Positions 48,409-53,745 of a stretch of DNA of 64,000 nucleotides are shown piece by piece; position 1 is the first letter of the stretch; every line of letters begins with the position of its first letter. Position numbers and translations under genes: made by a program. Below the pieces are notes generated by a model that did not search any database, had not been told where the DNA came from, and saw only the letters and a list, made by a program, of their open reading frames with translations. This DNA is from Bifidobacterium sp. ESL0682 (lineage in GTDB: Bacteria; Actinomycetota; Actinomycetes; Actinomycetales; Bifidobacteriaceae): positions 992,001 to 1,056,000 of the forward strand of contig NZ_CP113942.1 of assembly GCF_029392815.1 (NCBI RefSeq), given 5' to 3'.

Positions 48409-48482
48409 CGGGTCGTAGCGCAGTTTGGTAGCGCACTTGACTGGGGGTCAAGGGGTCGCGGGTTCAAATCCCGCCGACCCGA
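48409..48482 (+). tRNA. tRNA-Pro (GGG)
   Basis: 74 bases with acceptor CGGGTCG/CGACCCG, seven-base anticodon loop CTGGGGG giving GGG, and T arm CGGGTTCAAATCCCG. Its 3' half is the attachment site of the adjacent island and is regenerated intact on this side. Confidence 0.97.
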
Positions 48483-48483
48483 C
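48449..48483 (+). repeat. Left attachment site (attL) in the 3' end of tRNA-Pro
   Basis: A 35-base sequence starting CAAGGGGTCGCGGGTTCAAA, running to one base beyond the tRNA, is repeated exactly at 53711-53745. The flanking bases on both sides of the two copies differ, so the identity ends sharply. Confidence 0.92.
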
Positions 48484-48485
48484 TG

Positions 48486-48524
48486 AAAACCGCTGGAATC
48501 GTTAGGTTCCGGCGGTTTCTTGTT
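48486..48524 (+). terminator. Terminator behind tRNA-Pro, on the island side
   Basis: AACCGCTGGAA and TTCCGGCGGTT pair (one G.U or mismatch), followed by TCTTGTTTT. Being inside the repeat boundary, it was brought by the element. Confidence 0.65.
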
Positions 48525-48602
48525 TTCGGACGAAACCCGTTCCGGTAACGATTAGTAACGATTGCATACGCAACCCACTATCCCTGCGTTACCAGGGACG
48601 CA

Positions 48603-48872
48603 TCAGTCGGTTTCGGATAATTCTGTTTCCCGAGCCCTTCCAACGGCGTCCGCCACCTCATCCAGACGCTCCGGCCACAGCCTCGCATACGTGTCCAGCG
48701 TGATGGTCGCGCTCCGTATGGCGAACTTAAATAAGTGGATGCGTATACTCTCGTCATCCATGTCTGCGAGCTTGGGAACCGGGTATGGCGGCCAATTTCG
48801 CATATCCATTCTTGGACACCGAGAATCAGTCTGTCGTGCCCGTCGCTTGCTACGTCTGATTGACACGGGCAC
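48603..48872 (-). pseudogene. Tyrosine recombinase/integrase, C-terminal remnant
   Basis: The last ~40 residues of this frame read SATITLDTYARLWPERLDEV followed by ADAVGRAR, matching the end of phage integrases, where the catalytic Tyr lies in TLDTYxxLWP. The upstream part (MPVSIRRSKRRARQTDSRCP...) shows none of the earlier catalytic Arg/His boxes in any frame I could follow, so only the extreme C-terminus survives. It ends 120 bp from attL and is read toward it. Confidence 0.75.
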
Positions 48873-49060
48873 GCTCTCTTCTCCTCCGAATCCTTATCTG
48901 CACCCGCAACGTGAACGTCTTGCCAATCCTGGTTGTCACATACGTTCGTTTGGGTTGGGCTTCCTTATGCTGAATCGCATTTTTGATCTGTCATGTTCGT
49001 TTTCTACGTATTTACGGTATGCAGCTGTCCGTATCCTGTCTATTCGTTATAGTTAGGGAC

Positions 49061-51734: not shown

Positions 51735-52067
51735 ATGATTGACCAGATTACCGACAGACAGCAGGTACTCGTGCCGGATCCGATGGGTGACCCGACCCCT
51801 GGCGGCCAAAGTCGACAGGGTGGACGGCAAGTTCGATAACGACAACCGGCGGATCAACAAACTGGAGCAGTCCGGCACACGAGCGAGCTGTTCGCCCGCA
51901 CGCAAGACCACAACCAGCACGAGCATCAGCTACAGGTCGGACGCGAATATGTCAGACGAGGCTTCAACGGGGCCTGCCATGTGAGAATCCAACAACTTGA
52001 GCAGGACAAACGCTGCCAGGCTCGACTGCAACGACTGGGGCTACAACACGATGCCCCGCAACGGTAA
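51735..52067 (+). pseudogene. Broken coiled-coil reading frame in the island
   Basis: Consecutive coding-like pieces lie in different frames: MIDQITDRQQVLVPDPMGDP, then LAAKVDRVDGKFDNDNRRIN, then SELFARTQDHNQHEHQLQVG ... IQQLEQDKRCQARLQRLGLQ ending at TAA 52065. The breaks, near 51797 and 51880-51885, are not all at base runs, unlike those in the core genes, so true decay is likely. No family is recognised. Confidence 0.4.
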
Positions 52068-52237
52068 TGAGGCGTTTCTCCCATGCCCGTTCTTGTTTTT
52101 GCCGTCGCCATTCCGGTGATGGCATTTTCATATGCAAAAGTAAGGAGAAGAAAAATACGATTATCCTCAACAAGGCTTGCCCGCATCACAAGCTGGGTGT
52201 CTATTACGCGCGTCATTCGGTGGAACGTGTGCGGCAT

Positions 52238-52451
52238 GACCTGAGGCGTATGTTGGTGGCGTTGGTGACGGTGATGAGCATCGATACCGCGCAGGTTCCC
52301 CGCGATTTCGTCATCGTGGGTGTGGCTTGACCGAATAGCGGAACCACCCGCAGGGCTGAACGCGGATGCGAAGCACCAGCTCGATTGGGCGACTTCGGCA
52401 GGAAAGAAGACCGGCGTCTACGCCTACGCGCAATCCGGCGACGCCCACTAG
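52238..52451 (+). pseudogene. GH25-lysozyme-like (phage endolysin) remnant
   Basis: The frame ending at 52330 contains SIDTAQVPRDFVIVG, like the xxVxxDFVIVKATxG strand of GH25 muramidases. In the next frame to TAG 52449, DAKHQLDWATSAGKKTGVYA and YAQSGDAH resemble the following AxxAGKxxGVYxYA strand. The order and spacing fit one gene that has lost the KATxG segment and the rest of the barrel. The assignment is by eye from short motifs and is the main hint of phage origin for the island. Confidence 0.45.
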
Positions 52452-52788
52452 CTAGGTCGACGGGTCTACAAGCGATCTTAAAACCGTGGCGAATGCGTCG
52501 CAGTAGGATGGTGCGATGCTTACATGGCCACATCCCTCAAATGAATTGTCATCACCATCTTGCCTGCCATCGCGAAGCTGGTTGCTGCCATCGGTTTATG
52601 AAGTCTGTCAGTCCACTGGCCTCACGATCCTGCTTATCACCTCTGCGGCGACTTGCATGGGTGCGTGTATCGGCATCAGTGTCCTGCATGCCAAACCAGA
52701 ACAGTCTGACCGTCGATCGAGAATGTGAAGACCAAAGATCCAACCAAAAGCGTACTGTACTAGCTTTGATGCCGGTGCAGAACGCTTT
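52452..52788. other. Island DNA with a possible small hydrophobic frame
   Basis: At 52516-52728 a 70-codon frame has one clear hydrophobic segment (GLTILLITSAATCMGACIGI), and an overlapping frame reads IVITILPAIAKLVAAIGL. Two adjacent hydrophobic stretches just after a lysozyme remnant would fit a decayed holin, but no intact gene can be drawn. Confidence 0.25.
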
Positions 52789-53502
52789 TTATTTAGAGGC
52801 GGATTCCACCGGTAATGTCAATGTGACGTCAGAAATCTCATCCCAGGCTGTGGTGGATATCGATGTCATATCTCCGGCGATAACTGGCATGGCGCTGCAA
52901 CGATCCATGTCATAGAGTGTCAACGTGATTGGTGGCATGCACAGATAGGTCAAAGCGCGGATTTCCCCACTGTTCCCAAGGGTTAGTGACCAGCCCATTG
53001 ATGTCGCTGTGGAATCCTTGCCGATGATAGCCATGTATAATCGGTAACGCTCTGGGAAATTTCTTTCTTCTTTATTGAGGAGGTAGTCCTTGCAATCAGA
53101 CAAGGCTCCTGCCTTGTTGATGGTGCAAAAGTTGGAGATTATCTGCTTGCAAAAGGCCAGTGGCCTAAAAGACGGGATCTGTATAGCCAGACTCTGGTAT
53201 TCTGGTTTGAGCTCATTGATCACAATTGTGTTCAACTGGTTGAATACACGTGAGAATTCCGGAACATAGTGGCGGCCGAAGTAGCTATTGCATGAATTGC
53301 AGAGGGCATCGTATCCCATTCCTCGTTGCGATTGCTGGTAGTGGATACCCTCACCGTTGCCTTGTCTAAGTCGGGAAATCGCATCCTCGGAACGGTATAT
53401 TTTCGTCTTATTGGTATTCCCGGCCGATTGGGGCGGGATGTGCTCGAAAGTCAGTGGCCCATACTTACCGCAAACATGGCAATGTCCAATAGTTTTTCGC
53501 AT
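52789..53502 (-). CDS. HNH/treble-clef nuclease-like protein
   Basis: Its 237 residues have an N-terminal zinc-binding fold: C8-HV-C11 in CHVCGKYG, then FEHIPPQSAGN, and a second knuckle ALCNSCNSYFGRHY. The CxxC ... EHIPP ... CNxCNSxxG pattern is that of a divergent HNH-type domain, with H21 and the Asn as possible active-site residues. The remaining two thirds is a mixed alpha/beta region without recognised motif. Codon use is more AT-rich than the core genes, a sign of transfer. It sits next to attR, where cargo genes are common. Nuclease activity is inferred, not shown. Confidence 0.65.
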   Translation of the reverse strand: MRKTIGHCHVCGKYGPLTFEHIPPQSAGNTNKTKIYRSEDAISRLRQGNGEGIHYQQSQRGMGYDALCNSCNSYFGRHYVPEFSRVFNQLNTIVINELKPEYQSLAIQIPSFRPLAFCKQIISNFCTINKAGALSDCKDYLLNKEERNFPERYRLYMAIIGKDSTATSMGWSLTLGNSGEIRALTYLCMPPITLTLYDMDRCSAMPVIAGDMTSISTTAWDEISDVTLTLPVESASK

Positions 53503-53710
53503 ATGAAAATCATACTCGTTTTGGAATTTTATATGAGTAAAAAGGTTCGCTGTTTACCTGATCACAATATGTCCAGTCAACATTGGAACCGTAAAAGAGC
53601 GATTCTATCGTCTCTGTCGTTTTATTGCATGATTTGAGAAATGGCTTTATTGCAACGTTTATCGTCATTATCGTTTCTGACAGTTTTCGACATTTAACGT
53701 CCAGCAGCAA

Positions 53711-53745
53711 CAAGGGGTCGCGGGTTCAAATCCCGCCGACCCGAC
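53711..53745 (+). repeat. Right attachment site (attR)
   Basis: Exact 35-base copy of 48449-48483 (the tRNA-Pro 3' end plus one base), here without the 5' half of the tRNA. It marks the right border of the island. Confidence 0.92.

Follow-up and report, generated by a model that had tools for sequence, protein, structure and literature searches.

The window (the whole stretch of DNA that was analyzed, 64,000 nucleotides from the genome of Bifidobacterium sp. ESL0682, which is one contig of 2,093,512 bp) contains an intact tRNA-Pro(GGG) gene at 48409-48483 on the plus strand, as predicted by ARAGORN. The last 35 bp of this gene (48449-48483, referred to below as attL) recur without a mismatch at 53711-53745 on the same strand (attR, located by repeat search), and the starts of the two copies are 5,262 bp apart. 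Between them lie, from left to right, a terminator-like hairpin, a broken tyrosine integrase gene, an intact exonuclease gene, a fragment of a phage tail-region protein, an open reading frame (ORF) for a membrane-type protein, a fragment of a second phage protein, remnants of an endolysin and a holin gene, and an intact-looking gene for an HNH_5 protein. ESL strains of Bifidobacterium come from bees.

An initial annotation of this DNA had described both the exact duplication of the tRNA 3' end and the survival of the whole tRNA gene at the left boundary, and both descriptions hold. With up to three mismatches allowed, the 35-bp repeat matches these two places in the 64 kb and gives 0 matches in 100 shuffles; further att copies were sought across the window, the interior of the island included, and none was found. 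Bases 48300-48500, used as a query against the strain's own genome, returned three places: this tRNA-Pro(GGG) gene, the right-hand repeat and, at 864.6 kb, tRNA-Pro(TGG). The annotation had named a right repeat belonging to another tRNA gene as an outcome that would speak against an insertion; since ARAGORN places no tRNA gene there, that outcome is unsupported. Among the best 20 places in the plasmid nucleotide collection (95 records with a match) and the best 20 in the phage nucleotide collection (59 records with a match) there were tRNA matches only, and the 35-bp pattern is absent from the viral contigs. The DNA between the repeats had also been called atypical, a description that is weak by base composition (GC 51.2% for the island, 53.6% for the window).

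To the right of attR, bases 53746-53813 (plus strand) align with the DNA that lies directly 3' of tRNA-Pro(GGG) in relatives and that the insertion would have displaced. The stretch from 53711 to 53813 aligns without a break to the 3' end of tRNA-Pro(GGG) and the DNA downstream of it in genome G004 (95% over 103 bp), and the same downstream region is 93% identical in G028 and 88-91% identical in G033 and G008. We therefore built an empty-site query by joining the tRNA in script to its right flank, and compared it with a query for the occupied left junction at 18 fetched Bifidobacterium loci. In six of these loci the empty-site query is continuous for 62-75 bases past the tRNA (84-96.5% identity), and in the same six the left-junction alignment ends 15-25 bases past the tRNA. 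In the remaining 12 loci the empty-site alignment stops 0-41 bases past the tRNA; the left-junction score there is higher than the empty-site score in four (by 4-8 bits; L059, L062, L064 and L066, all more distant), equal in two and lower in six, and on these alignments the 12 distant loci decide nothing about the empty site. A single copy of the tRNA 3' end is present in the 16-17 kb fetched for four of the six continuous loci (L050, L051, L053 and L054), and the other two (L049 in G028 and L052 in G033) are themselves occupied. The upstream neighbor in the window, a cmk-der fusion gene by its Pfam domains, recurs in L049, L051, L053 and L054, and the surroundings of L050 and L052 are unlike those of the window. 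In L054 (G024) a 542-aa ORF comes next after the tRNA, and beyond it are two gene families that are also present in the window at about 58 kb.

Because tRNA and right flank are continuous in six of the 18 loci, the simplest reading is that 53711-53745 is an attR, that the sequence from 53746 onward is old chromosome, and that the interval between the repeats was inserted. The junction that the initial annotation had predicted for empty sites, with one 35-bp copy leading directly into 53746, is thus seen across species, in six loci of species other than that of the window, all six continuous and four of them with a single copy. In the occupied G028 and G033 sites the same downstream DNA stands behind both tRNA copies, and because of this the native-looking downstream DNA may itself have traveled with elements, as the scar of older ones. 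Past the attL copy is a terminator-like hairpin with a 14-pair stem (48487-48518, plus strand), which was probably brought in by the element, because it differs from the DNA beyond attR. By the features that define a tDNA-integrated genomic island, the block has an intact target at one end and a displaced 3' fragment at the other, an uninterrupted site in relatives (6 of 18 loci, from other species), and, in place of an integrase gene inside the island, a broken remnant.

Two further observations concern the window outside the repeats. A second variable stretch (53814-57850) lies to the right of attR. Of its ORFs, one of 275 aa is unmatched in the other 111 of the 112 genus genomes, one is 171 aa long, and one encodes a CAAX-type protease, a relative of which (45%) lies about 4.5 kb beyond the attR of a prophage in G004; the GC content of 53746-56300 is 44%. 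Elsewhere, tRNA-Gly(GCC) occurs twice (25571-25644 and 28265-28338), the two copies being 2.7 kb apart and identical over 79 bp (including 4 bases before and 1 after the gene), with different flanks.

The minus strand beside the tRNA carries the broken C-terminal part of a tyrosine integrase gene (48618-48948), recognized by its similarity to the integrases of G004 and G002. The best preserved piece (48618-48713, minus strand) shares 87.5% identity over 32 aa with the end of the 425-aa integrase of the G004 prophage, and it matches the G002 integrase at 83% over 29 aa; weaker broken pieces extend to about 48948 (E about 1e-3). Compared with the G002 protein, what we take to be the HxxR region is altered and about 20 residues are absent before the presumed tyrosine-containing tail, which is kept. 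The G004 and G002 integrases belong to PF00589 and phrog_1, and their ends point to tRNA-Pro(TGG) as the end of the remnant points to tRNA-Pro(GGG). The integrase C-terminus that had been reported next to the tRNA is accordingly that of a phage integrase relative, and the proposed search of this tail against phage integrase families leads, through its G004 and G002 relatives, to PF00589 and phrog_1. The strain's own genome has five PF00589 genes; none is at the site, and the one most similar to the remnant matches it at 42% over 36 aa. The G004 integrase, used as a query against the viral contigs, found no relative.

The right part of the block holds fragments of phage genes, all on the plus strand, which we located with phage proteins as queries and a control, in place of a noisy six-frame comparison. 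Six of the eight queries match the island (E 1.5e-6 to 1e-27), and outside the island, over the remaining 58 kb, no match has an E value better than 0.011; the two queries with no island match are proteins of 108 aa and 382 aa. The first fragment (50801-50941) matches the C-terminus of a 190-aa ORF that lies between the minor tail and endolysin genes of the G004 prophage (47% over 47 aa, E 1.4e-7, with a DNA match of 73%), and is called tail-region from that position. The second (51876-52013) corresponds to phrog_32121 (E 1.9e-7) and is 52% identical over 46 aa to a protein of an insert in G022. It is followed by the remnant of a GH25 endolysin gene (52142-52445), of which the N-terminal part alone is left, with a stop, a frameshift and an internal deletion; it matches the 444-aa G004 endolysin (PF01183/phrog_291) at 48% over 90 columns and 84% over 31 columns (E 9e-29), and its second piece is weak by PHROGs alone (E 0.023). 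The last is the C-terminal remnant of a Dp-1-type holin gene (about 52600-52695), part of a 135-column match to the G004 holin (PF16938; 32%, E 4.8e-10) and likewise weak by PHROGs alone (E 0.24).

The G004 prophage is the natural reference for these pieces. It lies at tRNA-Pro(TGG) between att copies about 37.9 kb apart that form an exact 35-bp repeat, with its integrase gene at the tRNA end and tape-measure, Dit-like, minor tail, endolysin and holin genes at the far end; it was scanned at its ends only, the 190-aa ORF and the middle lying outside the scan. Because the integrase, tail-region, GH25 endolysin and holin fragments of the window are ordered and oriented as in this prophage (the prophage ends being what was compared), we consider it very probable that the 5.3-kb block is a decayed prophage in tRNA-Pro(GGG), grounded and with its bulk deleted. 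Structural and lysis genes, the mark of a prophage remnant, are present as fragments (tail-region, phrog_32121, endolysin and holin). The scan of the island ORFs showed no head, packaging or replication genes, and the integrase is broken, so that the block is not a functional prophage; no relaxase or conjugation genes were found among the island ORFs scanned (the shortest of which were covered in part), and it does not qualify as an integrative and conjugative or mobilizable element. The initial annotation had listed an exonuclease, a membrane protein, a lysozyme-like remnant and an HNH-like protein, and all are present, as the exonuclease, a 136-aa ORF, the GH25 remnant and the HNH_5 protein. 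Its proposal of a decayed integrative element in tRNA-Pro(GGG) is borne out by the repeats, the intact tRNA, the continuous right flank of the relatives and the phage fragments; its statement that the contents match no known complete prophage or ICE had left the kind of element open, and the fragments now identify a prophage remnant.

The same fragments bear on two other accounts. That the tRNA 3' end was duplicated in some other way (local duplication or gene conversion), with unrelated DNA between the copies, is hardly credible: nothing specific speaks for it, the repeat and the 35-bp att sites of the G004 and G022 inserts cover one and the same section of the tRNA, an integrase remnant adjoins the repeat, and the integrase and lysis fragments contradict this account. 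It is also highly unlikely that the block was a small integrative island or cis-mobilizable element, never a full prophage, that used integrases in trans. Such elements are suggested by att-bounded blocks of 3.9 kb in G028 (L049) and 6.1 kb in G033 (L052) at the same tRNA, which share MerR-like, aldo/keto-reductase-like and third ORF families (named by eye) and have no PF00589 match at the tRNA-Pro(GGG) site in either genome. The block in the window, however, contains decayed phage tail-region and lysis genes, and the five PF00589 genes of its own genome all lie elsewhere and match the remnant at 42% over 36 aa at best.

An intact gene of the block (49061-50512, plus strand) encodes a predicted membrane-anchored DEDDh 3'-5' exonuclease of 483 aa, as judged from PF00929 (E 5.2e-21), phrog_192 and a structure model. 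The ATG at 49061 is a likelier start than the TTG at 48983, because similarity to the G117 homolog begins there. The model (mean pLDDT 75, with residues 71-140 below 50) shows two helices at the N-terminus, then an exonuclease fold, and at the C-terminus an alpha/beta domain for which Pfam gave no match. The DEDDh (DnaQ-like) assignment follows from the RNase_T domain together with conserved acidic residues and a histidine, in agreement with the predicted fold: D161, E163, D246, H301 and D306, the catalytic residues of the family, are invariant in all nine aligned sequences. The gene was tried as a PADLOC candidate, PDC-S48, and rejected, the matches being limited to profile positions 6-196 of 411 and 2-181 of 512, that is, to the exonuclease domain. 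At a threshold of 1e-10, matches occur in 70 of the 112 genus genomes, most of them confined to the exonuclease domain. The gene has near relatives in G117, where the frame is open, and in G033 and G002, with one stop each inside the match; because two of the four near copies (that of the window counted among the four) are interrupted, the comparison speaks against strong selection on the gene. The exonuclease gene of G117 begins about 150 bases beyond tRNA-Pro(TGG); that of G033 stands directly behind the attR copy at tRNA-Pro(TGG), outside the element, and that of G002 is about 3.7 kb past attR. The exonuclease has no match among the picked ORFs of the G004 prophage stretches. Relatives are also carried by 16 predicted viral contigs, and in three of the eight examined (in which the neighborhood of the exonuclease was checked for relatives of the G004 and G002 integrases only) such an integrase lies within 4 kb, in one case divergent from the exonuclease as in the window.

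These positions are relevant to a further possibility, namely that the block is a composite, in which one integrative element left the integrase end and the exonuclease, another phage left the tail and lysis end, and a deletion fused both within the att bounds. We regard this as a rather unlikely course of events, albeit one with several observations in its favor. The exonuclease stands outside the elements at TGG sites (directly behind the tRNA in G117 and behind attR in G033), one fragment is closer to the G022 insert than to the G004 prophage, and tRNA-Pro sites accrete elements, as in G033 with its three 3'-end copies at tRNA-Pro(GGG). On the other hand, the integrase and lysis fragments match opposite ends of one G004 prophage, and the island has no additional att copy inside it.

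Two other ORFs complete the block. The HNH_5 protein (237 aa; 52789-53502, minus strand) is encoded between the holin remnant and attR and matches PF14279 above its curated cut-off (E 7.2e-8). It has relatives in three other genomes of the 112, and similar ORFs of 464-465 aa lie a few kilobases away at all three loci, the one that was scanned being a phage-type integrase. The 136-aa membrane-type ORF (51283-51693, minus strand) runs opposite to the phage fragments and has a hydrophobic C-terminal half; a search of the remaining 111 of the 112 genus genomes at E 0.001 gave nothing, and Pfam and PHROGs gave chance-level matches only.

Taking the block as a decayed prophage, we propose the following course of events. 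A temperate phage with a tyrosine integrase would have entered by recombination between its attP and the 35 bp that end tRNA-Pro(GGG), so that a replacement 3' end from the phage restored a working tRNA at attL and the displaced native 3' end came to lie at attR. The prophage would then have been grounded: its integrase gene was disrupted, most of its genome disappeared by deletion, and decay left only fragments of the tail and lysis genes near attR. The deletion would amount to about 30 kb for an original with the length of the G004 prophage. On this view the exonuclease gene and the HNH gene would have arrived as phage cargo and would persist either for their usefulness or because decay has not reached them so far.

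A stronger proposal for the exonuclease makes it an immunity gene that phages carry close to their integrase and that has outlasted prophages beside both proline tRNA genes in several species, its product now acting as a resident anti-phage nuclease. We think this doubtful, and the putative defense role is our inference, the PADLOC matches being confined to the exonuclease domain. Prophage remnants of this sort are an ordinary, known kind of relic. Should the exonuclease be a phage gene kept for protection, this remnant would exemplify a prophage reduced by decay to a single useful gene; if not, the relic is a routine one. Some novelty, of a modest degree, lies only in the survival of the exonuclease, a gene that may merit testing.

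Second tRNA-Pro(GGG) 3' fragments are found on the same contig in at least six of 36 other genus genomes (G013, G016, G019, G022, G028 and G033), and proline tRNA genes are thus a recurrent insertion target in the genus. At two of these sites (L065 in G016 and L110 in G022) only about the first 48 bases of the native tRNA-Pro remain, and a complete tRNA-Pro(GGG) follows about 150-160 bp past the cut, with similar sequence between the two at both sites; it looks as if an element had supplied a whole replacement tRNA. At L052 (G033) the tRNA-Pro(GGG) 3' end is present at 0, at +6.1 kb and, in degenerate form, at +9.3 kb, an arrangement of tandem accretion, and an integrase tail remnant lies near the tRNA. 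Together with the window, the inserts point to both proline tRNA genes as phage-type insertion sites in Bifidobacterium, the integrases at the two isoacceptors being related.

A literature search on bifidobacterial prophages in tRNA-Pro returned, by title, no paper on bifidobacterial prophages, and the main text of a paper on honey-bee prophages (PMC10259446) contains the word 'tRNA' 0 times. Among the inserts compared here, the G004 prophage shares with the window the integrase family of the remnant, a 35-bp att over the same part of the tRNA, and the order of tail, endolysin and holin genes toward attR. The G002 insert (about 42 kb, at tRNA-Pro(TGG)) shares the integrase family and the att geometry, with an exact repeat of its own of 33 bp. 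Both inserts differ from the window in using the other proline tRNA gene and in being full-length, whereas the window retains 5.3 kb with the exonuclease and the HNH_5 gene. The G022 insert (about 38 kb) has in common with the window tRNA-Pro(GGG) itself, a 35-bp att of the same extent and the phrog_32121 protein, but there the native tRNA survives as a truncated 5' half, behind which stands a complete tRNA-Pro, and its integrase was found about 9-10 kb inside. In the portion of PMC6109161 considered here, bifidobacterial prophages in tRNA-Met, tmRNA and dnaJ2 are described with tyrosine integrases and att sites of 39, 26 and 35 bp at the 3' ends of their targets; the window is like them in its tyrosine integrase and its 3'-end target, and tRNA-Pro is not among the three sites named there. 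The tDNA islands of Islander, as outlined in the part of PMC4383910 considered, have ends marked, like those of the window, by a regenerated target and a displaced fragment, and the window differs from them in that its integrase is no longer intact.
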